From: a virus
IMG/VR virus record: IMGVR_UViG_3300036768_000200
Location: 1 to 27,300 of that record
Length of the DNA: 27,300 bases
Strand: one strand, 5' to 3'
Shown: positions 2,633 through 24,688 of the stretch, piece by piece
How positions within the stretch are numbered: position 1 is the first letter of the stretch
Layout of the letters: each line of letters begins with the position of its first letter
Notes under the pieces: generated by a model
The model's input: the letters and a program-made list of their open reading frames with translations, nothing else
The model's database searches: none
Told to the model about the DNA's origin: nothing
Position numbers and translations under genes: made by a program

Positions 2633-3092
2633 TGGAAACCTCGCTTTTTATATTGCCCCACGTCCGCGTCAACCGCTGCTCAATGGTGTCGTACTCATCG
2701 ACTTTGCGCAGCTTCAAGCTGAATTCGATCTTGCGTGGACGATTGCCCAGCAACTCTTTATGGGTTTCGTCCACGCCGGTGATGATCCACTTTCCCATGA
2801 GATCACCGACCAAACTGGAAGCACTGATGACAATCAGCACTTGCGGCTTGCCTTCCGCCATCATGCTACGCAGGTAGGTCAAGCTCAGTGGGGCGAGAGC
2901 GCCGCAAATTTCTGGGGCAATCACGCCAGGGAGTGTAATGTCATCATCGCCGGGGCCAAGGTGCTGTTGTGCAGCACGTCGCCCCACGCGCTCGTGCTGG
3001 CTCCAGCGTTGCGCGGTGGTGCGCTGTAGTTCTTGGTACGCCACGCCCGTTTCGCGCAAGCCGAAAATGAATTTTCCGAGAATCATCTGCAT
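2619..3092 (-). CDS. U: Tail protein U (P2 gpU-like tail terminator)
   Basis: A 157-aa homologue of P2 gpU. The family is needed for tail completion and probably caps the tube. Family features seen are the N-terminal F-G-L-RET-Y-L-R segment, the R-QWR-like stretch, the LPGVI segment, the LVI-coupled SASSLVGDLMGKWIITGVDE region and the basic IEFSLKLRKVD strand. The ATG overlaps the TAA of the tape measure gene by one base (TAATG), with GGAGG upstream inside that gene, so translation is coupled. It is followed by X with a 14-nt overlap. Confidence 0.92.
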   Translation of the reverse strand: MQMILGKFIFGLRETGVAYQELQRTTAQRWSQHERVGRRAAQQHLGPGDDDITLPGVIAPEICGALAPLSLTYLRSMMAEGKPQVLIVISASSLVGDLMGKWIITGVDETHKELLGNRPRKIEFSLKLRKVDEYDTIEQRLTRTWGNIKSEVSNALF

Positions 3093-6000
3093 TAGTCGTG
3101 CATCCTCCCACGCTGCCGTGCCTCATTGCGCCGCGCTTCCTCACGCAACACGCGCTGCACTTCTGCTGCGATGTCTTGCGCATCCATGCCTGGTGCTGCG
3201 TTGATCGTGATGCTAATGGTTTGTTGCGGGGCAACCGCAGGGGCGGGGGCAGGGCGTGCGAATGGCACAACGTTGGCACGTTCGCCCAGCTTGCCCACGC
3301 CTTCGCCTTCCGCTTTGCTCGACAACGCTTGTGCAAACAGCGGGTCATTCGCCGCCATCGCCTGAAAATCCTGTATCGCGGGTGGCATCTGGTTGGTGAT
3401 CGGCGTGACATACCCCGGCTGATGCGCCATTAAGTAGGTTTTCCCCGCCATCGTCAGCAACTCCGGCCCCAACTCGTTGACGCGGTAGAACCCACCGGGC
3501 GCAACACTGCCACCCGTGGCACGACTACCATCTAAACGTTGCTGCACCACAGGCGCGAGGTTTTTGATAGCCTCACGCGCTTGTTGGGCATAGTCAGCCG
3601 TGGATGTGCCATACGCATCATGGCTATCAGCACCGCGCAGGAATAGCTTATTTGCCCCGCCAACCCCTTTCAGATGGGCGGCTTTGGCGTAGGCGGCAAT
3701 TTTGGCAGGGTCATCATTCTCACGAATTGCACCCGACCGGACACCCGCTTGAATATTGCGATTGGTGTACTCGACAAACTTCTGGTCTTGCAGGGTTTTG
3801 TTTGCCAGAAACGCCGATTGACCACCCGCTAACTCCCAGTTACTGGCATTGGCAAGGAACGCTTTGTGATAACCACCCTTGTACCACTGGCTACCCGCTG
3901 CGGCTTTGGCAGCGCGTAACCGCGCCATATTCACCAACCCGCTTTCTGCCAGCGCATCCGCCCCGAACTGGTACTGACCAGAGAAACCGAAAGAGTTGAC
4001 CGACCCCACATTACCTTTACTTTCAGTCATCATGGTATTAGCAGCATAAGCGCGGGTTTGCGCCTCATTCATACCCATCAAGTGACCGGATGCTGAAAAC
4101 CCCAAGGCGGATTGTACGGCATCAAACTTGCCCCCAGCCTTATTGGGTTGCTGCACCGCTTTGATGGCTGACCCAACCGCAGACGCAATACCGCCACCGG
4201 GCAACACCGCCGCCAGTGCACCAGTAACGGGAGCAGGCAAGCTAGGCAGGGCATTATTGGTGGCTTCAAACGCCTTGCCGATGTTTCTTGCTAAATCATC
4301 ACCCTTGAAAGCATCCGCCACATCTGACCACCAGCCCTTGAGCTTGTCGCCGAAACCGTCTAAAAAGCTGAACAGCTTGGGTTGCGCAACTTCCATGCCT
4401 TGCTTCATGCCATCGATGGTGAATCCACCGATTTCGGCAAAGACACGGGAAGGGGAGTTGATGCCGAGGATGCCTTTCGCGCCGTCGATAATGTCGCTAC
4501 CGAAACCCGTTATCCAATCCAACGCAGCGGATGCGCTGCCTTTCAGTCCATCCAGCAAACCATTGATAATATTACCGCCCACTTCCAGCATTTTCGCGGG
4601 CAGCTTCACAAAGAACTGTAAAATGCTGGTAGCCATATCTGCTGTGAACGTAATGATTTTTTGCCAGCCATCCCAAAATGCCTTGGTAACGCTGTCGATC
4701 AGACCAGAAACCCACGTAATAAATGTTCCCCAGACGGCTTGCACGTCTTCCCAGAACGCCAGCAGCATCGGCTTGATCGTGTCCCAGTTGGTGTAAAGCA
4801 GGTATGCACCCGCTGCGAGTGCCGCAATCGCTGCAATCACCAACGTGATCGGGCTGGTTAGGATAGCCATTGCCACCCCGAAGGCGGTGGTAGCGGTGGT
4901 CATCACCCACATTGCAGCGGCACTGATTCCCGCCCAAATGGATGATAGTGATAACCCCGCAATCCATGCGCCAATCGGCGTAAGCTGAAATGCCGTCCAC
5001 ATCGCCGCCATCTTCAAATACGCGACATAGCCAAGAATACCCAGACCGATTGCACCAATCGCCAGCACCAACGCCTTGCTCTTGGTACTCATGTTGTCCC
5101 ATTCGAGGTAGACATACCGCGCACCAATCGCCAGCCCGACAATCAACGCCACCAGCAGCCCGATAGGGCTTGCCAGAAACGTGATAATGCCCAGCAATGC
5201 ACCCAGACCTTGCAGGAAACCGGACAGGGCAGCGATAACCCAGCCACCCGCCAGCACCATTGCCAGCTTGTCCCAACCGCCGATGAATTCCGCGAATTTC
5301 GACACGAACTCGCCGATTTTCAGCACCGTATCCCACACGCCCTTGCCGAATGCCAGCACGTTATCCATCACCACCGGAATTTTCTGTGCCGCAGAATCCA
5401 GCCAACCGCGTAACGAACCATCACGCGCCTTGCCGCTCAACCACGCCAGCCCTTGAGAGAGTTTGTCAAAGGCAGCGACCAACACACCGGAAATCGTGGC
5501 GCGTACCGTGCCTGCATTGTCGGACAGGTAACGCCCAATCACCCCGAACACATCGCCGAACTGTTGCCGCAGCAACGGCAAATGCCCACGGATACTGTCA
5601 AACGCCGACTCAAAAACCGCCCACAATTCCTTGCCTGCATTGGTTAGCAATTTGAACGGGCTAAGCGAAAACGCAAAGGTGAGGGCAGGGAGGGCTTTAC
5701 CCAAATCCAGCCCCGCCAATGCCGACGCAACCCGCTTGCCAAATGCCAGTGCCTTTTCCGCCCCTTGTTCAAACAGCGGCATCAAGCGGTTGAAATGCGC
5801 CTTGAGGTTGGCGACTTGTGCTTGTATCAGCGGCAACCCTTCGGCTTTTAGCTTCGGAAAGCCACCCCAGTTCTGGAACTGCTGGAATACCGCCTTGATC
5901 TTGTCTTGGATGTCGGGCAATAGCTTGCGCCAATCCACCAGCGAGGCGGTAACACCTGCCAGCAGCAGCGGCAATAGCCCCACACCCGCACCCACAGCAA

Positions 6001-12606: not shown

Positions 12607-13445
12607 AGGGATGCCTCCAATCGTAAATGAGTGGTCATTTGACCGCTTATGCCTACGCCAGCAGGCGCAGTGGCACGGGTGGCAGTGCGCAGGTGCTTTG
12701 CATCGGTGCGCTGGTGCGTGGTGAGTTGCCCACTTGTGCCTATGCCTACGCCAGAGGGCGCAGTGGCACGGGTGGCAGTGCGCAGGTGCTTTGCGTCGGT
12801 ACGCTGGTGTGTGGTGAGTTGCCCACTTGTGCCTATGCCCACGCCAGCAGGCGCAGTGGCACGGGTGGCAGTGCGCAGGTGCTTTGCGTCAGTACGCTGG
12901 TGCGTGGTGAGTTGCCCGCTTGTGCCTATGCACACGCCCGATGGGGATGCTTCAACCGCCAACGTAAATTTGTAATGGATACTGGCGCGTTTGCTGCGAT
13001 TGAGTTGCTCCAAAATATCGCGCACTGCCTCCGCCCCGATGATCATGTCAGCAGCAGGGTTGAGGATAGTATTAATCCACAAGGTAACGTCCATCGTGCC
13101 GGGTTCACCCGGCGGTTGCATTTCGTGCCAGTAGACGATTTCAGGGCGGACACCCAATGCAGCCAGCGCGTCCATTACGCCGCCGTGAGTCCCTTTATGC
13201 CGGTGCATTTCCAGCGCGTTTGCGCATACAGCGCGTTTTATGGCTTCGGGCCAGCGGTCATTCCAAAGGTCGACTGACAAGGCGTAAGCCAACCACGGCA
13301 GAAATTCCAACGGGCATTTCATCGGGTCGTGCAAATCGCGGATGATGTCGGCATTTACGCGACAGTATTTTTGCGCAGCGTGGCTTTCCAGCTCGCGCTC
13401 AAACGGCGTGGCGTTAGGAATCAGGCTGTGGTCACAGTGGCTCAT
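12603..13445 (-). CDS. I: Baseplate protein I (P2 gpI-like) with C-terminal tandem repeats
   Basis: A 280-aa protein. Residues 1-165 match the P2 gpI family: LIPNATPFERELE, DLHDPMKCPLEFLPWLAYALSVDLWND, then the HRHKGTHGGVMDAL segment. P2 gpI is 176 aa. The extra length is a C-terminal array of three 31-residue repeats (about residues 174-266, consensus containing GQLTTHQRTDAKHLRTATRA) and a short degenerate fourth. The ATG at 13445 has GGAGGT seven bases upstream and overlaps the J stop (ATGA). GpI is a baseplate wedge component that helps attach fibres. The repeats would extend from the wedge toward the fibre. Confidence 0.88.
   Translation of the reverse strand: MSHCDHSLIPNATPFERELESHAAQKYCRVNADIIRDLHDPMKCPLEFLPWLAYALSVDLWNDRWPEAIKRAVCANALEMHRHKGTHGGVMDALAALGVRPEIVYWHEMQPPGEPGTMDVTLWINTILNPAADMIIGAEAVRDILEQLNRSKRASIHYKFTLAVEASPSGVCIGTSGQLTTHQRTDAKHLRTATRATAPAGVGIGTSGQLTTHQRTDAKHLRTATRATAPSGVGIGTSGQLTTHQRTDAKHLRTATRATAPAGVGISGQMTTHLRLEASL
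12648..12939 (-). repeat. 93-bp tandem repeat inside gene I (three copies plus partial fourth)
   Basis: Copies start at 12648, 12741 and 12834, with a truncated fourth from 12927. By hand alignment copies 1 and 2 differ at 5 of 93 positions and copies 2 and 3 at 6. The unit is a multiple of three and preserves the reading frame, giving a 31-aa repeat. The near identity at DNA level points to recent expansion or ongoing homogenisation. Confidence 0.93.
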
Positions 13446-14437
13446 GCGTACACCTCCGTGACGTTGACCGTTTCGCAATACGCGGCTTGGTGGGCAGCGA
13501 GTGCCAACGGCAACACAGGCGATTGAATCAGTGCGCGGTAAACTGTGGGTTGGCGCAATGCCGCCAGTAGCCCGTCTTCGTCAACGATATGCCCGATGCG
13601 CTCGGACTGTTCGCGGTATTTTTTAAGCGCGGCGGTAATCGCTGTCATGACTGGCGTGGATGAAGCGCCACGATACAGTTGCACGGTTGCGTTGAGTGTG
13701 TAGCGCACGATTTCCGCACTGCGAACCGTTACCAGATCGCCTTGCGGGAATGCGTAATGCCCTGTCACGGCGTGACGTACTGTTTCCAGCAATTCGGGTG
13801 ATGCAGTGCCATCCCCGTCGTGGGATAGCACGGTGAGGGTCATGTGATAGGGCGCAGGGCTGACGGCGGTGATGTCTTTCACCAGACCTGACGCTGACAA
13901 AGCGTGGAAAATGTACCAGCCGGTGCTGCCACCTTTTGCCAACCCTTCAATCGACAGCATCATGCGGGTGCGGTATGCAGCGTCGCTTTCCATCACTGCG
14001 GGGGTTGTCGCAGTCGCGGGTATGACGGTCAAGCGTTGCAGGCGGTAGTAGCGAAGCCCGATATGGTCGAGGTCAGCACCCGTGGCATAGGCTGGCATGG
14101 TTGCCAATGCTGCTTCGTTGATGCGCTGACGCAGCAGTAATTCGCGGTACACGTCTGCTTGGATGTGGCGGGTGCTGGGGTCGGATTCTAGGTCAAGGTA
14201 ATACAGCCCCGCGTCAGCGTTGACGGGGACTTTCCAATACGTTTCGGTGTCGGTTTGCACCAGTTCGGCAGCACGGTATACGGGTTGCCCATTCTCAAAA
14301 ATTAGGGGTTGTAGAGCCTGAAACTCGGTTTTTCGCTCTGCAAACAGGGTTTCGTAGTCCAGCGGCTCTACAACTGACGGTTTTGGCAGTTGAGATAGAT
14401 CAGCATCGTGATAGGGGAGTACGCGGTCAATGCTCAT
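13442..14437 (-). CDS. J: Baseplate assembly protein J (P2 gpJ-like)
   Basis: A 331-aa baseplate wedge protein. Family features: LPKPSVVEPLDYETLFAERK at the N-terminus, the RQRINEAALATMPAYATGADLDHIG segment (family: LL-lRARINdAArA-mLA-A-GadLD-la), then ESDAAYRTRMMLSIEGLAKGGSTGWYIFHAL. About 40 residues between 50 and 95 look like an insertion relative to P2 J. The start and stop overlap neighbours by 4 nt on both sides (ATGA), showing tight coupling in W-J-I. Confidence 0.93.
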   Translation of the reverse strand: MSIDRVLPYHDADLSQLPKPSVVEPLDYETLFAERKTEFQALQPLIFENGQPVYRAAELVQTDTETYWKVPVNADAGLYYLDLESDPSTRHIQADVYRELLLRQRINEAALATMPAYATGADLDHIGLRYYRLQRLTVIPATATTPAVMESDAAYRTRMMLSIEGLAKGGSTGWYIFHALSASGLVKDITAVSPAPYHMTLTVLSHDGDGTASPELLETVRHAVTGHYAFPQGDLVTVRSAEIVRYTLNATVQLYRGASSTPVMTAITAALKKYREQSERIGHIVDEDGLLAALRQPTVYRALIQSPVLPLALAAHQAAYCETVNVTEVYA

Positions 14438-14964
14438 GCCGCTACCCCTACGCTGATTTCCGCACCGTTGTAGTCACCGCGCAGGGTGCAGAACAGCTTG
14501 CCGTTGCTTTGCTCTTCGGTCGTGCCGGTGAGTTTGACTTGCTTCAAACGGAAACGCGGCTCCCACTTTTCGAGGGCTTCGGCGATGTCAGCAATGATGC
14601 CGACGCGGGTAAGGTCATTCTGGGGCTGGTCAATCCGCTCAAACAGGTTACTGCCGTATGTCCGGCGCATGACTCGCGAGCCAATGCGGGTGTGGAGGAT
14701 GTCGGCAATCGACTGTTTTAGATGATCGACTCCAGTTAAGCGTCTGCCCGTTTTCGCACACATGCCTTGGCGTTGCTTGCGGCTGGCGATGGCGGCGATG
14801 CGGGTAACGGTAGTCGGGGCAACACCAGCCGACGGGCGGCTGGTGCTGGATGGCGCGGACGACAGCAGGCTAATCACCGTATCCAGTTTGCTGGATAACG
14901 GCGTGACGGTGCTGTTGAGTTCTACCCCAACCGCATAACCGAATTGTGCCAGTGCGTCAGCCAT
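14434..14964 (-). CDS. W: Baseplate assembly protein W (GPW/gp25 family) with N-terminal extension
   Basis: A 176-aa protein. The C-terminal part from about residue 68 is a typical GPW/gp25 domain: TGRRLTGVDHLKQSIADILHTRIGSRVMRRTYGSNLFERIDQP, then ALEKWEPRFRLKQVKLTG. This domain has a lysozyme-like fold without activity and joins the wedge to the sheath. The first 65 residues, rich in Ser, Thr and Ala with a short hydrophobic helix (LDTVISLLSS), are absent from P2 gpW (115 aa) and of unknown use. Its end overlaps the start of J (ATGA). Confidence 0.9.
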   Translation of the reverse strand: MADALAQFGYAVGVELNSTVTPLSSKLDTVISLLSSAPSSTSRPSAGVAPTTVTRIAAIASRKQRQGMCAKTGRRLTGVDHLKQSIADILHTRIGSRVMRRTYGSNLFERIDQPQNDLTRVGIIADIAEALEKWEPRFRLKQVKLTGTTEEQSNGKLFCTLRGDYNGAEISVGVAA

Positions 14965-14971
14965 ACGTCAG

Positions 14972-15682
14972 TTACACCACAGGTACGCGGCCATAACCGA
15001 AGGCGGACGGCTGTGCCGCCAAACCACGGCGGAATTCGTTCACCGCTGCTGGCACATCAACGCCGACGAATTTGCTTTCCAGCATATCCAAGCGGTTGCC
15101 GTATTCCGTTTGTTTGGTTTGCAGCGCAAGGATTTCATTCTGACGCAGGGTCATTGAGCTGGTCAACGTGGTGATCTGACCCTGAATCGTGGCGATGGTT
15201 TGGTCGGTCAAACCGTCCTTATTTTCCAGCGCAGTCTTCAGGGTTTGGATTTCACCGCGAATCGCTTGCTCTTCGCCTTTCGCACGCAGGATTTCCGCGT
15301 CAATGCGACCGTTGACGTTGGTCATCCATGTGGAGATGTCTTGCGTCGTTTGGTTGGCAAAGTTTTTCAGCGTAAGAATATCGGCTTCGGACTGCTCAAT
15401 GCGGGTCAACAAGCCAACGTAGTTGTTGCTGATCAGGGTATAGAGGTTTTGCCCTTCGTCCCATTCGGGTGTACCGGGTTGGGCATCCGCGATTTTCAGC
15501 AAGTTGGCGATGATACCATTAACACGGGTATCTTCTTGTGCCAGCACCGTGTATTTGCCGTCGATGTAGGCACGGGTGTCAGCATCCTTGGCGGCGACAA
15601 ACGCTTCAACGTCGCGACCGAAGTTATAGCCAACACGTTGCAAAATTTCGGAGAGGTTCGGGATATTAGTAATGTCAGTCAT
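14972..15682 (-). CDS. Unassigned coiled-coil protein between V and W
   Basis: A 236-aa protein with no family I recognise, inserted between spike gene V and wedge gene W, which adjoin in P2. Residues 60-205 are strongly helical with heptad-like spacing (LLTRIEQSEADILTLKNFA; later ALQTKQTEYGNRLDMLESKF), so it likely forms a long coiled-coil oligomer. The last 25 residues (FRRGLAAQPSAFGYGRVPVV) are a different, Gly/Ala/Pro-rich tail. There is no membrane segment. AAGGAAA precedes the ATG. Its position in the baseplate operon suggests a virion or fibre-linker part. Confidence 0.65.
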   Translation of the reverse strand: MTDITNIPNLSEILQRVGYNFGRDVEAFVAAKDADTRAYIDGKYTVLAQEDTRVNGIIANLLKIADAQPGTPEWDEGQNLYTLISNNYVGLLTRIEQSEADILTLKNFANQTTQDISTWMTNVNGRIDAEILRAKGEEQAIRGEIQTLKTALENKDGLTDQTIATIQGQITTLTSSMTLRQNEILALQTKQTEYGNRLDMLESKFVGVDVPAAVNEFRRGLAAQPSAFGYGRVPVV

Positions 15683-15731
15683 GACGCTTTCCTTCGTTGG
15701 GAGTAAACCAGCTCACGCTGGGGTTAAAAAA

Positions 15732-16205
15732 TCAGGCGGGTTTGCCAGTTCTGGCTTTACCTGCGGTTACGTCTTTATGGATGTGGTTTTTCAGGCTGAT
15801 GCCGTCTGCAATTACGTCGCCGTTGACAATGACATTACCCACTGCGGTGATGGTGATTGCGCCCGTCGCCACGTTGTGTTGAATACTGTTACCGTTTTCA
15901 AACTGGATCAGGTCAATGTTTTCGTCGGTGCTGGGTGCGTCGTTGGCGTTGTGGTACAGCTCCCCGATGATGACACCTTGCGAAGGGTCGCCAGCGCGGC
16001 ATAGCACGATAAATTGTTGCCCGACTTTGACAGGTCGCCAGCGTTTGTAATTGCGCCCGGTGTCAGCGGGGTACGGTAGCCAACCTGTGGTTAATGCACC
16101 TTCTGTGATCCGCAGTTTTTTCGCCGCGTGGTCGACTTCGGAGACTGTGCCGAAGATGACCAGGGCGGCGAATTTGCGTTGGAGTTCGGCGAGGTCGTAG
16201 CTCAT
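15732..16205 (-). CDS. V: Baseplate spike protein V (P2 gpV-like)
   Basis: A 157-aa shorter relative of P2 gpV (211 aa), the trimeric membrane-piercing spike. An N-terminal OB-like domain (about 12-85; FGTVSEVDHAAKKLRITEG, GWLPYPADTG, GQQFIVLCRAGDPSQGVIIGELY) leads into a beta-helix (AITITAVGNVIVNGDVIADGISL). The tip has the metal-binding HxH motif H141-I-H143 followed by KDVTAGKARTGKP, as in P2 where the histidines hold an iron ion. No clear Shine-Dalgarno is seen before the ATG. It is the first structural gene of the baseplate operon after the accessory island, the position of the P2 V promoter. Confidence 0.93.
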   Translation of the reverse strand: MSYDLAELQRKFAALVIFGTVSEVDHAAKKLRITEGALTTGWLPYPADTGRNYKRWRPVKVGQQFIVLCRAGDPSQGVIIGELYHNANDAPSTDENIDLIQFENGNSIQHNVATGAITITAVGNVIVNGDVIADGISLKNHIHKDVTAGKARTGKPA

Positions 16206-16285
16206 AGGTGGTGCATCGTCAGTTAGCGTTCCGGTGTTGGCGTATCCCGGTTAGCGTATGCAGCACGATTGCAAACGGAAAGCGG

Positions 16286-16322
16286 GCGCGTCCTTAATGC
16301 GCGTTGTTTAGGGATGCGCCCA
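16286..16322. repeat. 37-bp palindromic repeat, copy A
   Basis: Identical to 24616-24652 over 37 bases, flanked by different sequence. The arms GCGCGTCC and GGATGCGC pair around the core, giving an imperfect hairpin with TTAATGCGCG near the loop. A related hairpin is at 16594-16624. It looks like a REP-type extragenic palindrome. Copy A lies upstream of V, copy B upstream of terminase. Confidence 0.8.
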
Positions 16323-16326
16323 GCAA

Positions 16327-16470
16327 TCATTTCAGTGCCAGTATGATTGCTGGTGCTTGCCAGATTGCTATGCAAAGCAACAACGTCAACAGAATCAGTA
16401 GGAATCGCCAAAAAGACATTTTGTTCACCATCCGCAGTAACGCGATAAAAGTTTTGGTATACTCGTTCAT
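16327..16470 (-). CDS. Small membrane peptide (47 aa)
   Basis: A short ORF reading MNEYTKTFIALLRMVNK, then a hydrophobic helix (FWRFLLILLTLLLCIAIW), and ending PAIILALK. It has a good ribosome-binding site, AGGA seven bases before the ATG. The N-terminus is basic and would stay in the cytoplasm. I do not recognise the family. It is upstream of V in the same direction and downstream of the antirepressor terminator (16633-16658). On the opposite strand an extended -10 motif and a terminator bracket its start region. It could be a lysis helper, a superinfection-exclusion peptide or a type I toxin. None is proven. Confidence 0.55.
   Translation of the reverse strand: MNEYTKTFIALLRMVNKMSFWRFLLILLTLLLCIAIWQAPAIILALK
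16455..16463 (+). promoter_or_regulatory. Possible extended -10 promoter antisense to the 47-aa gene
   Basis: TGGTATACT matches TGnTATAAT at all but one position of the hexamer. No good -35 is seen. A transcript from about 16470 would end at the terminator 16482-16526, making an RNA of about 57 nt complementary to the leader of the 47-aa gene. Confidence 0.35.
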
Positions 16471-16481
16471 GTTAATTTCCT

Positions 16482-16526
16482 GCCTGCCTCAAATGGTGCT
16501 TGCAACACCTTGGCAGGCTTTTTTTT
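16482..16526 (+). terminator. Rho-independent terminator, + strand
   Basis: GCCTGCC (16482-16488) pairs with GGCAGGC (16512-16518), with an inner GGTG/CACC stem, followed by eight T. No + strand protein gene lies upstream, so it serves either a short antisense RNA or blocks opposing transcription into the accessory island. Confidence 0.75.
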
Positions 16527-16593
16527 GCCTAATGCCGTCATCACGACGGGTCAGCCGTTAGTTTGCAGGGTGCGGGGTTGCGGTGCTGGTGGG

Positions 16594-16624
16594 TGCATCC
16601 TTAATGCGCTGCATTCAGGATGTG
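16594..16624. repeat. Hairpin related to the 37-bp repeat
   Basis: The segment CATCCTTAATGC GCT GCATTCAGGATG folds into a 12-bp stem with one mismatch. It shares TCCTTAATGCGC with the 37-bp repeat copies A and B, and has the same overall shape. It lies just left of the antirepressor terminator. Confidence 0.65.
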
Positions 16625-16632
16625 ACAGGCAC

Positions 16633-16658
16633 AAAAAAGCCCACGCGGTGGTGGGCTT
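16633..16658 (-). terminator. Rho-independent terminator of the antirepressor gene
   Basis: On the - strand, AAGCCCAC and GTGGGCTT pair around a short loop and are followed by a T run. It lies about 40 nt past the antirepressor stop codon and separates the accessory island from the baseplate operon. Confidence 0.85.
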
Positions 16659-16695
16659 CGTTTGAATTCTGTTACAGATTTCAAGTTAGGGGTTT

Positions 16696-17418
16696 TTATC
16701 CCCGGTTGGCTTTCATTTGGCGGAACGTGTGGGCATAGATCATGCTCGTGGAATGACTCACCTTGCTGGCTAGAGTCGTTGGCACTGGCACAGTCATCGG
16801 CAATGGAGCGTAGTTGTTCTGGATGCTGCGGCTTAACGCTTCGCCGAATATTTTTGATAGGGCAACCACGGAATCACACACATCAATCCAGTCATCCATC
16901 GGGATGGTGATGGAGTCTGGAAGCTGTGGTCTGCCATCAACCATCAGCGGCTGCCCTGCCCCGCCATAGTACGGCTGCGAAGTCACCCCATAGTCACCCA
17001 TCCAGACCAACGCCTTGCCCGTGTTATCCAGCACGCTCTTGTGGATCATGATGAACTCAGGGTCAACGCGGGGTTGCTTGGCGCGACGTTCGCACTCGAT
17101 GAAATACCGCCGTGCTTCCCTGCCCTTGTCGTTCTTCTCGACCATCGCGAGTTCCTTCGCCATTTCCAACGTCAGGAAGTAGTCAATGGAGCGACGATCA
17201 CCACCCCGCCCTTTTTTGATTCCCCCGTTTTGGTGAATCAATACGAAGTCATAACCTTCAGAAAAACCATACTCGGCAATGCGGTCTTTCACCCAAGTTG
17301 CGAAGTCACGCCCAACCTGCAAAAAGTTGTGTAAGTCGCGGGCATTCACGCACTGTTCTTGTGTGCCAGAAACGGTATGGGAAGTTATGCGGATGATGCT
17401 ATTATCTTGCGTAGTCAT
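16696..17418 (-). CDS. AntA/AntB family phage antirepressor
   Basis: A 240-aa protein. Residues 20-92 form the AntA/AntB domain: CVNARDLHNFLQVGRDFATWVKDRI, EYGFSEGYDFVL, then IDYFLTLEMAKELAMVEKNDKGREARRYFIECE. In P1-like and other phages these proteins bind the lytic repressor and favour induction. The C-terminal half (about 115-240) is not recognised. It is likely monocistronic, with its own leader hairpin, divergent promoter and terminator. The start has AGAGGT nine bases upstream. In P2 no antirepressor lies among the structural genes, so it is an accessory gene here. Confidence 0.88.
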   Translation of the reverse strand: MTTQDNSIIRITSHTVSGTQEQCVNARDLHNFLQVGRDFATWVKDRIAEYGFSEGYDFVLIHQNGGIKKGRGGDRRSIDYFLTLEMAKELAMVEKNDKGREARRYFIECERRAKQPRVDPEFIMIHKSVLDNTGKALVWMGDYGVTSQPYYGGAGQPLMVDGRPQLPDSITIPMDDWIDVCDSVVALSKIFGEALSRSIQNNYAPLPMTVPVPTTLASKVSHSTSMIYAHTFRQMKANRG

Positions 17419-17491: not shown

Positions 17492-17520
17492 TTGTATAAC
17501 AATCGTTATACGTTTATAGT
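17492..17520 (+). promoter_or_regulatory. Promoter of the toxin-antitoxin operon with palindromic operator
   Basis: TTGTAT (17492-17497), 17-nt spacer, TATAGT (17515-17520). A perfect inverted repeat, GTATAAC-AATC-GTTATAC (17494-17511), overlaps the -35 and spacer. This is the layout of an autorepressed antitoxin promoter. The ribbon-helix-helix protein encoded next is the likely ligand. Confidence 0.7.
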
Positions 17521-17544
17521 ATAGGCATATTTCAACCAAAGCAA
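17516..17544 (-). promoter_or_regulatory. Possible divergent promoter for the antirepressor
   Basis: On the - strand TTGCTT (17539-17544), 17-nt spacer, TACTAT (17516-17521). Its -10 overlaps the -10 of the + strand promoter, so the two promoters cannot be occupied together. Confidence 0.5.
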
Positions 17545-17555
17545 GAGTTTTAGAT

Positions 17556-17828
17556 ATGCCAAAAATTCAATTCAATATGCGGATTGAGCAAGACCTTAAA
17601 ATGGGCTTGGAAGAATCTGCAAAATCACAGAACCGGACAGCAAGCAACCTTGTTGAGTGGCTGATCAAGCAATACCTTGAGCAGCTTGCTAAGCGCAGCG
17701 CACCCTCACCTGATGCGTTTGATGCGAAGATTGCAGCGGATGCGGAGGCGGGAAAGCTGGATTTCTTGCTGGAAGAAGCCAAAAACGAGTATGACGCTGG
17801 CAAACTGAAGGGATGCGGGAATGTATGA
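17556..17828 (+). CDS. Ribbon-helix-helix antitoxin / autorepressor
   Basis: A 90-aa protein. Residues 1-45 form an Arc/CopG-type ribbon-helix-helix (PKIQFNMRIEQDLKMGLEESAKSQNRTASNLVEWLIKQYL), with the strand used for DNA contact and two helices. The C-terminal part (about 68-87) is AGKLDFLLEEAKNEYDAGKLKG, like the toxin-wrapping tail of RelB/ParD-type antitoxins. It is the first gene after the palindromic operator, and the toxin start lies 8 nt inside its end. It is likely both repressor and toxin inhibitor. Confidence 0.85.
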   Translation: MPKIQFNMRIEQDLKMGLEESAKSQNRTASNLVEWLIKQYLEQLAKRSAPSPDAFDAKIAADAEAGKLDFLLEEAKNEYDAGKLKGCGNV

Positions 17829-18111
17829 TATTGAGGTAACGGAAGTATTTCAGACGTGGTTCAACGACCTGCCCCGCACGGTGGCTTTCCGTATCACTTC
17901 CCGCATTGACCGCGTGAGGGATGGGAATTTCGGCGATGCAAAGCGGCTGGATGAGTCCCTGTCAGAATTACGCTTCTTTTTCGGGTCAGGTTATCGGATT
18001 TATTACACCATCAGGGGTGGTGCGGTGGTCTTGCTATTGGCTGGCGGCGACAAGTCCAGCCAAGCGAAGGACATCAAGAAAGCACGAACCCTGTTAACTG
18101 AGTTGGAGTGA
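17821..18111 (+). CDS. RelE/ParE superfamily toxin (HigB / 'addiction module killer' type)
   Basis: A 96-aa protein with the usual length and pattern of the family: EVFQTWFNDLPRTVAFRITSRIDRV, then a RIYYTIRGGAVVLLLAGGDKSSQAKDIKKAR C-terminal core. The GGDKSSQ-DI-KA segment is diagnostic of the HI1419-like killer subfamily, normally paired with an HI1420-like antidote encoded downstream. Such toxins cut mRNA on the ribosome. It overlaps the upstream antitoxin by 8 nt and its TGA touches the start of the next gene. Here it is flanked by antitoxin-like genes on both sides. Confidence 0.9.
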   Translation: MYDIEVTEVFQTWFNDLPRTVAFRITSRIDRVRDGNFGDAKRLDESLSELRFFFGSGYRIYYTIRGGAVVLLLAGGDKSSQAKDIKKARTLLTELE

Positions 18112-18116
18112 TGAGT

Positions 18117-18365
18117 ATGGCTATCAAAACAAAACCGTTTGACGTGTCTGCACACCTGCAAACGGATGAGGATATTCGGGAATTCCTCAACATCATGCTG
18201 GAAGAAAACGGCACAGAAGGCTTTGAACGTGCTTTGGCGTATGTTGCCACTGCCAAAGGCATGACTGACATTGTGCGGCTAGATACCCGCCCCTTGTCGC
18301 TGGAGACGATTGATAAGGCAGTGCATTCCCTTGGCTTGCGCCTGTCAGTGCAAATGGCGGCATGA
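18117..18365 (+). CDS. HigA-like antidote protein lacking most of its helix-turn-helix
   Basis: An 82-aa protein from the ATG at 18117, which has GGAG eight bases upstream. An ATG at 18111 overlapping the toxin stop is the alternative. It begins like HI1420-type antidotes (IKTKPFDVSAHLQTDEDIREFLNIMLEENG, ALAYVATAKGMTDI) and ends like them (LETIDKAVHSLGLRLSV). Between these the usual 20-25 residues of the helix-turn-helix (pattern IA-ETGLSRESLYKALS-GNP) are replaced by the short VRLDTRPLS. Normal members are about 95-100 aa. DNA binding is probably lost while toxin binding may remain. Confidence 0.8.
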   Translation: MAIKTKPFDVSAHLQTDEDIREFLNIMLEENGTEGFERALAYVATAKGMTDIVRLDTRPLSLETIDKAVHSLGLRLSVQMAA

Positions 18366-18369
18366 GCAA

Positions 18370-18398
18370 CAAAAAAGCCCCGCCAGTCGGGGCTTTTG
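18370..18398. terminator. Bidirectional Rho-independent terminator
   Basis: AAAAGCCCCG and CGGGGCTTTT pair around CCAGT, with A and T runs on both sides. It serves the toxin-antitoxin operon from the left and the convergent BRCT gene from the right. Confidence 0.9.
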
Positions 18399-18404
18399 TT
18401 GGTG

Positions 18405-19508
18405 TCACTGGGTGTACTCGTGGTACTGGGCGATGGCGCTCTTGCTCTGGTTCTTGTCGATCACGTACTTTTCATCTGGAACTTTTCCGTCTTTCAGCCA
18501 CTTTTCCAAGGATTTTTCTGTCAGGTGATAACCAATGGAATTCCCGTTTCCATCCATATTCTTCACTTCCAGAGGGTCTAGCGATGAAATAACCTGTAAA
18601 TTCCTACCCTGTCCACCGTGGAATGTATCGCCTTCTTCAAAGGCATATTCCCTTGGGTTTGATATGGCAAAACTTCCGTACTGAATCAACTTGCTAAGGC
18701 GTTCTTTACGGAGCTTATCAAATTCTGGGTATTTGGGGTGGTCAGCAATTTTCGGTGACTTTCCGTGCTGCTGCTTGTATTGATCACAATACACCTTATT
18801 CTTGTTTTGTGTTCTGAATGGCTCAAGAAGAACATTAAGCTCACTGTATCTTGGATTTTCCTTCTCCCATGCCTTCCGTAACTTCATAGTTGGCTCTGGG
18901 TCGGTAAAATACTTCCACTGGATGCCAAACGCTGACCAATGCGCTTTTTTAACAGCGTAAGACCACGCGGCAAACTCTGCCGTAGCTTCGTCTTCCGTGA
19001 TTGGTATCCAATCAGCCGATTTTTCCTTGGAAACATAACCATCTGGCAATATGCCATCATTAATAAATTCGTAAAACTGGTCAGTCGTGATGATGGAAAC
19101 CTTTTTGTTTTCAGCATCTTCCATTGCTTTCCCACAGAGACCGTCGCCAACACACAAGAAATCGAGCTTTGAACTGACACTATATCTGACGCGCATAGTG
19201 TTCTCCCTAGCCAAACTTTCGAGTCCTTCACGATCGTCAGCCCTGAAGCCTTTGAAACAGATGTCGAATAACTGGTCTTCGTCAAGCTCCAGAGGTTTTC
19301 GTTGCTGAGCTGCTTTCGGTATGGGAATGTCGGCAAATCCATTAAGAGCAGACTCGTCTGAAATATGCTGAACAATCCTATCTTTACGGAAAGTTCTCAT
19401 TCCACCTGAATATTCACAATATCCCCTGATATATGCTTTATCTTCCTTGAAGTTGGTCAACTTCCGCAGCGTCTCTTGACCGGAACTATCACGATAAACA
19501 AACAACAT
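18405..19508 (-). CDS. WYL-like / BRCT domain fusion protein, accessory gene
   Basis: A 367-aa protein. Residues 1-50 (FVYRDSSGQETLRKL, YIRGYCEYSGGMRTFRKDRI) resemble the WYL-type fold or its C-terminal extension in bacterial regulators. Residues 75-150 fit a BRCT domain (ICFKGFRADDREGLESLA, VRYSVSSKLDFLCVGDG, KKVSIITTDQFYEFI) of the bacterial LigA type, which binds DNA ends or protein partners. Residues 160-367 are not recognised: basic, helical, no clear catalytic motif. The ATG at 19508 is preferred to that at 19520 because GGGGGTGG lies before it. Base composition is more AT-rich than its neighbours, suggesting transfer. It has its own 3' terminator. Possible roles in DNA sensing or defence are inference. 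Confidence 0.7.
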   Translation of the reverse strand: MLFVYRDSSGQETLRKLTNFKEDKAYIRGYCEYSGGMRTFRKDRIVQHISDESALNGFADIPIPKAAQQRKPLELDEDQLFDICFKGFRADDREGLESLARENTMRVRYSVSSKLDFLCVGDGLCGKAMEDAENKKVSIITTDQFYEFINDGILPDGYVSKEKSADWIPITEDEATAEFAAWSYAVKKAHWSAFGIQWKYFTDPEPTMKLRKAWEKENPRYSELNVLLEPFRTQNKNKVYCDQYKQQHGKSPKIADHPKYPEFDKLRKERLSKLIQYGSFAISNPREYAFEEGDTFHGGQGRNLQVISSLDPLEVKNMDGNGNSIGYHLTEKSLEKWLKDGKVPDEKYVIDKNQSKSAIAQYHEYTQ

Positions 19509-19582
19509 AGCCACCCCCATGACAGAAAATATTCAATAAGCTGATTGAATGGTTATTTTCTATCAGTGTCAAGGGTGGAAAC

Positions 19583-24483: not shown

Positions 24484-24688
24484 TTGTAATTCCTAGGGTA
24501 AGGGTCGTCACCACATTACCAACCCATTCGGATCAATGAGCGGGTCAACTGGACTTTTCTGGCTCACGCCATACTGTTCAACACTTTCTAAGGGATTGCC
24601 GCTGCGCTCAATAGTGCGCGTCCTTAATGCGCGTTGTTTAGGGATGCGCCCACCCGCCTTGTGTCCCCCGCCCCTTTATCCTACCTGC
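24484..24688. promoter_or_regulatory. Divergent O/P intergenic region
   Basis: In P2 the Ogr-activated late promoters for P-Q and O-N-M lie here. I see no strong sigma-70 promoter. Late promoters that need an activator often lack a -35, so this fits. TGTTCAACA (24575-24583) is the only short palindrome, and repeat copy B (24616-24652) lies nearer P. Confidence 0.4.
24616..24652. repeat. 37-bp palindromic repeat, copy B
   Basis: Identical to 16286-16322 (copy A). It lies 36 nt upstream of the terminase start. The two copies have the same orientation relative to the window and so opposite orientation relative to the downstream operon. Confidence 0.8.

Follow-up and report, generated by a model that had tools for sequence, protein, structure and literature searches.

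A possible split-function toxin-antitoxin cassette in a P2-like phage, with a ribbon-helix-helix gene ahead of an HI1419/HI1420-type pair

In type II toxin-antitoxin systems, DNA binding and toxin binding are usually combined in one antitoxin protein. Which protein regulates, and which neutralises, if a toxin gene is preceded by the DNA-binding gene of another antitoxin and followed by an antidote gene that has no DNA-binding part? Such an arrangement would make the origin of three-component systems testable. It is present in an IMG/VR virus contig of 27,300 bases from a P2-like phage (we call this whole stretch the window). A sequence-only reading of the window had described a ribbon-helix-helix (RHH) gene, a RelE/HigB-type toxin gene, and an antidote gene, in that order and in one operon. 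All three open reading frames are indeed there, in the same orientation and in overlapping frames.

The middle gene (17821-18111, plus strand) encodes an HI1419-type toxin of the RelE/ParE family, with 96 amino acids. It is a full-length member of TIGR02683 (105.8 bits against a cutoff of 62.85, covering positions 2-94 of the model's 95), and it keeps all 15 of the positions that are invariant in the toxin alignment. The nearest toxin (62%) is on a plasmid of Acinetobacter variabilis; searching by sequence, we found no solved structure for the family. The start of the toxin gene overlaps the stop of the RHH gene by 8 nt, with ATGTATGA common to both ends, and between these two genes we found no sign of an operator or of a plus-strand promoter. 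The toxin-antidote pair therefore depends on the promoter of the RHH gene.

The third gene (18117-18365, plus strand, with the frame open from 18108) encodes an HI1420-type antidote of 82 amino acids. Its likely start is the ATG at 18117, which lies 5 nt past the toxin's stop and has a GGAG 8 nt upstream. The protein had been called a HigA-type antidote. It does belong to PF21716 (45.1 bits, above the cutoff of 27), while its score against TIGR02684 is below the cutoff (46.8 versus 53.7 bits, with model positions 1-51 of 89 aligned). What does not hold is that it is an intact protein of this type: an in-frame, internal deletion of 13 residues has removed the helix-turn-helix (HTH) motif, as seen in a MAFFT alignment with 94 relatives. 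The deleted stretch spans the conserved G-L-x-R-E-S-L-Y-K-A-L-S ... G-N-P region, and none of the 94 relatives has five or more gaps across the HTH columns. With AlphaFold2, we modeled the window's antidote and a full-length relative, using 18 and 13 sequences for the two models (pLDDT about 84 for each). In the full-length relative, residues 49-56 and 60-66 form helices, and the model resembles HTH antitoxins of the HipB type (TM about 0.54, probability 1.0). The window's antidote has coil at 48-62 and no HTH, and its model had no confident structural match (best probability about 0.1).

The closest solved relative of the antidote is HigA from S. pneumoniae (6AF3/6AF4), in which helices α1-α2 bind HigB, the HTH consists of helices α3-α4, and dimerisation is through the C-terminal strand (PMC7984235). 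If this map is transferred by homology from 6AF4, then the window's antidote would retain the toxin-binding helices, and with them probably the ability to neutralise the toxin, along with the C-terminal dimer region; it would have lost DNA binding. The antidote retains 23 of 31 conserved positions, which is the 6th percentile of the family, so some relaxation is possible. An open frame with an in-frame internal deletion favours function. We also considered that HTH-less antidotes might be a recurrent class. However, the partial antidotes that we examined (L199-L205) are frameshifted, are truncated at the C terminus, or have no detected toxin, so we rejected this idea. In the open-access papers that we searched, we came across no description of an HI1420 protein without an HTH.

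The first gene (17556-17828, plus strand) encodes a 90-amino-acid RHH protein with an antitoxin-type tail, which is probably the regulator. Its match to PF07878 is borderline (25.7 bits against a cutoff of 26, E = 9.7e-6), and it also matches Arc-like PHROGs (E = 1e-4). Its closest relatives are at loci L002 (71% identity) and L003 (63% identity), which are both on viral contigs of IMG genome 2617270711. Other relatives, among the matches listed, are from Thiothrix eikelboomii and Thiofilum flexile (at least two loci, in a scan of genome contigs), which suggests a Thiothrix-like host for the phage. The RHH relatives adjoin an antirepressor gene, and the toxins vary. In L002, the RHH gene is followed by a ParE_like toxin (PF24732); in L008 and L164, a Doc toxin comes after an RHH gene whose product is similar in its N-terminal domain. 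In L003 (positions 2983-3252, at the end of the contig), the RHH frame is fused to the final codons of a deleted ParE_like toxin, which may be an orphan antitoxin or an edge effect of the assembly. On these comparisons, the phages of this group swap their RHH regulators among families of toxins.

The tail motif of the window's RHH protein (IAADAEAGKLDFLL...) is also found on antitoxins that precede a PF24732-type toxin (L013-L015). By its sequence, the tail looks cognate to a ParE_like toxin, which is another type than HI1419. The RHH gene is thus, as judged from its relatives, of foreign origin relative to the HI1419/HI1420 pair. The locus had been summarized as two antitoxin-like genes around one toxin; because of the tail's apparent partner, we prefer to describe it as a borrowed regulator with a regulator-less antidote. 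Compared to L002, the tail has dN of 0.12-0.14 and dS of 0.33-0.40, and dN/dS is about 0.25-0.37 in both domains. Most of this divergence may be older than the swap of toxins.

Upstream of the RHH gene, conservation with L002 and L003 points to a promoter at 17492-17520 on the plus strand, with a −35 box of TTGTAT (17492-17497), a 17-nt spacer, and a −10 box of TATAGT (17515-17520). The position of the −35 box, the length of the spacer, and TATA(C/G)T are common to all three loci (in L003 the −35 box is TTGTTA). A palindrome had been reported at 17494-17511, and there is an exact 7+7 inverted repeat at that position (GTATAAC-AATC-GTTATAC), over the −35 box and the spacer; we consider it a candidate operator, with no strand assigned. 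When the 75-nt upstream region is shuffled, an inverted repeat of this length appears about 2% of the time. The window, L002, L003, and L008 all have an inverted repeat centred near −53, at −60 to −63 relative to the start of the RHH gene. The repeats of L002, (GT)ATAGC-AAAA-GCTAT, and L003, GTTAAA-TGTCG-TTTAAC, are over the −35 box as well, and that of L008, GTAAGA-TGTTG-TCTTAC, is at −60. Relative to the window, the arms in L002 differ by a symmetric A-to-G / T-to-C change. Taken singly, the repeats in L002 and L003 are unremarkable (43% and 26% of shuffles); their common position is better evidence than any single repeat, with the proviso that the window and L002 do not count as two independent cases. 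The four loci have different toxins downstream, so the palindrome goes with the RHH gene. From its symmetry, the palindrome at 17494-17511 may be bound by the RHH protein.

The similarity of the DNA to L002 covers the promoter and the RHH gene, ends at most 20 nt before the start of the toxin gene, and returns at the terminator. This pattern of breaking off and resuming implies that the toxin module was exchanged between the RHH gene and the terminator. The terminator is a hairpin, AAAAGCCCCG-CCAGT-CGGGGCTTTT, at 18373-18397 (no strand assigned). A terminator shared by the three genes had been proposed; the hairpin is there, but it scores as a terminator on the minus strand, and on the plus strand the T-run lies mostly within the stem. 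It is probably shared with a convergent minus-strand gene (18405-19520), whose 371-amino-acid product has no Pfam match. (Over its N-terminal 160 residues, this product matches a phage DNA ligase PHROG, and there is a weak match of residues 68-152 to NAD-dependent ligases at their C-terminal end.) A near-identical copy of the terminator follows the RHH/ParE_like module in L002. The terminator's sequence occurs once in the window and twice in the L002 phage (once with a mismatch); it is absent from the three host-group genomes that we tested.

How rare is this arrangement? We surveyed 177 loci from genomes and viral contigs with a toxin scoring at least 60 bits (167 distinct sequences, including the window; a few loci are duplicated), and we searched upstream with a profile made from nine RHH sequences. 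The window is the only one of the 177 with an RHH frame directly upstream of the toxin on the same strand, and visual inspection of the neighbouring upstream frames gave the same result. The same three-gene order, which the sequence-only reading suggested seeking in other genomes, was thus found at 1 of 177 HI1419-type toxin loci, the window itself. At eight plasmid loci there was no RHH gene upstream of the toxin; all eight are plain two-gene pairs. We therefore rejected a widespread three-gene order and view the operon as a one-off chimera. An order that occurs once gives no sign of selective maintenance. Searches of viral contigs with the RHH and antidote proteins found no second copy of the operon, sequence P0001 had no match in plasmids or phages, and we found no report, in the open-access papers searched, of an RHH gene before an HI1419/HI1420 pair. 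Separately, in L117, a HigA-like XRE antitoxin lies 3 nt before an HI1419-type toxin, and no HI1420-type gene was detected downstream; this is possibly another exchange of partners.

The cassette is on the plus strand, inserted between minus-strand genes among the phage's late genes, which are of P2 type (lysozyme, gpI, gpV, tail completion protein gpS, capsid, and terminase). On one side it is flanked by an AntA-type antirepressor (PF08346; 16696-17418, minus strand). Two metagenome contigs (L167 and L168) are 96-98% identical to the backbone next to the cassette (13642-16749 of the window) and have another antirepressor and another RHH-like gene at the same position, which makes the site one where cassettes are exchanged. 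We also noticed that a 35-bp stretch of the window near the start of terminase (24616-24650) is identical to a stretch at the border of the baseplate and antirepressor genes in L167 and L168. And an in-frame tandem repeat of 93 bp is present three times in the C-terminal region of the gpI-like tail protein (12648-12938).

We propose, with moderate confidence, that the locus is a chimeric three-gene addiction cassette in which the RHH protein represses and the HTH-less antidote neutralises: a natural split-function system that arose by recombination. The promoter, the palindrome, and the RHH gene would descend from a module of the RHH/ParE_like type, in which an HI1419/HI1420 pair replaced the segment from the RHH stop to the terminator. 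Bound to the palindrome that overlaps the −35 box, the RHH protein would keep the operon repressed. The antidote would hold the toxin by its retained helices and would still have its dimer region, and because its HTH has been lost, it would neutralise without regulating. Two features of split-function three-component systems are present: a separate regulator gene, which is first in the operon, and an antitoxin without a DNA-binding domain. A split of functions had been suggested before the HTH was known to be missing from the antidote; that loss, and a palindrome that accompanies the RHH gene and not the toxin, fit the suggestion well. On the other side, a unique order together with a decaying third gene had been named as grounds for abandoning it. 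The order is unique among the 177 toxin loci, and the third gene is altered, with its frame still open.

Within this proposal, a narrower history is that a three-component system has been caught soon after it formed. The pair would have been captured under an RHH-controlled phage promoter, and the antidote would then have lost its HTH because autoregulation had passed to the RHH protein. We put this forward tentatively, at somewhat less than even chances. If true, then the locus is a direct intermediate towards the layouts of paaR-paaA-parE and omega-epsilon-zeta, and toxin-binding helices plus a dimer region suffice for an antidote. Each protein can be assayed separately, with L002 and two-gene HI1419/HI1420 pairs as controls of the parental types.

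Could the RHH protein do both jobs, repressing the operon and neutralising the new toxin with its tail, so that what is left of the old antidote, in the third gene, is decaying? The tail is of the kind with which antitoxins typically wrap their toxins and is still conserved, and the order and overlap of the RHH and toxin genes resemble a normal RHH antitoxin-toxin pair. The antidote's missing HTH and its low percentile for retained conserved positions would also make sense. However, the antitoxins with matching tails (L013-L015 and L002) are partners of PF24732 toxins, with no HI1419-type toxin among their partners. Also, the antidote has an open frame just after the toxin, its deletion is in frame and internal, and it keeps the toxin-binding helices. 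We consider this explanation unlikely.

Or the genes might be unrelated neighbours: an RHH gene orphaned from a lost toxin, perhaps with an anti-addiction role, followed by a pair that lost its autoregulation. The L003 RHH gene, with only the last codons of its toxin left, could be such an orphan, and the RHH relatives do adjoin an antirepressor gene and have differing toxins. But the 8-nt overlap, and a pair that depends on the RHH promoter with no separate plus-strand promoter or operator found, seem inconsistent with mere adjacency, and we think this explanation is quite unlikely. Finally, the locus is known from a single record, and no second viral-contig copy turned up with the RHH or antidote proteins, as might be expected of a functionless locus or an assembly chimera. 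Yet the junctions coincide with gene boundaries, where start and stop codons overlap, and with the terminator; each of the three genes has an open frame, and the toxin's invariant positions are intact, so a dead or artefactual locus is very improbable. We return to the split-function cassette in comparing the window with known systems.

Each of the three protein families is known, and so are tripartite systems with a separate regulator (PMC4803016, PMC8630535). Compared to HI1419/HI1420 pairs (upstrm_HI1419 / dnstrm_HI1420, or Gp49 HigBA-like), the window's toxin and antidote are alike in sequence and in order, and the window differs by its upstream RHH gene and HTH-less antidote. The RHH/ParE_like (PF24732) and RHH/Doc cassettes in phages and genomes of the Thiothrix type (L002, L008, L009, and L164) have related RHH proteins; the window shares promoter spacing with L002 and L003, and the position of the palindrome with L008 as well. 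Unlike the window, these cassettes have two genes and another toxin, and they lack a third, HI1420-family gene. The regulator of omega-epsilon-zeta is of the RHH kind, and epsilon is not HI1420-like. Like the window, omega-epsilon-zeta (pSM19035) has a separate regulator and an antitoxin without a regulatory role (PMC4803016), but zeta is another type of toxin and the order is regulator, antitoxin, toxin. The pasABC system of pTF-FC2 resembles the window in having an antitoxin/regulator, a RelE/ParE toxin, and a third gene, in that order; PasC is reported to aid neutralisation, and the antitoxin is PasA rather than PasC (PMC4803016). We rejected homology to PasA and PasB of the related plasmid pTC-F14: the toxin gave no BLASTP alignment, and the RHH protein gave a chance match of 6 residues. 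In paaR-paaA-parE of E. coli O157:H7, which has three genes with a separate regulator first (PMC8630535, PMC4803016) and which we compared by its description, PaaR2 is like lambda CI in function instead of an RHH protein, and the order is regulator, antitoxin, toxin. It is like the window in its number of genes, its leading regulator, its toxin of the RelE/ParE superfamily, and its location in a prophage (paaR2-paaA2-parE2).
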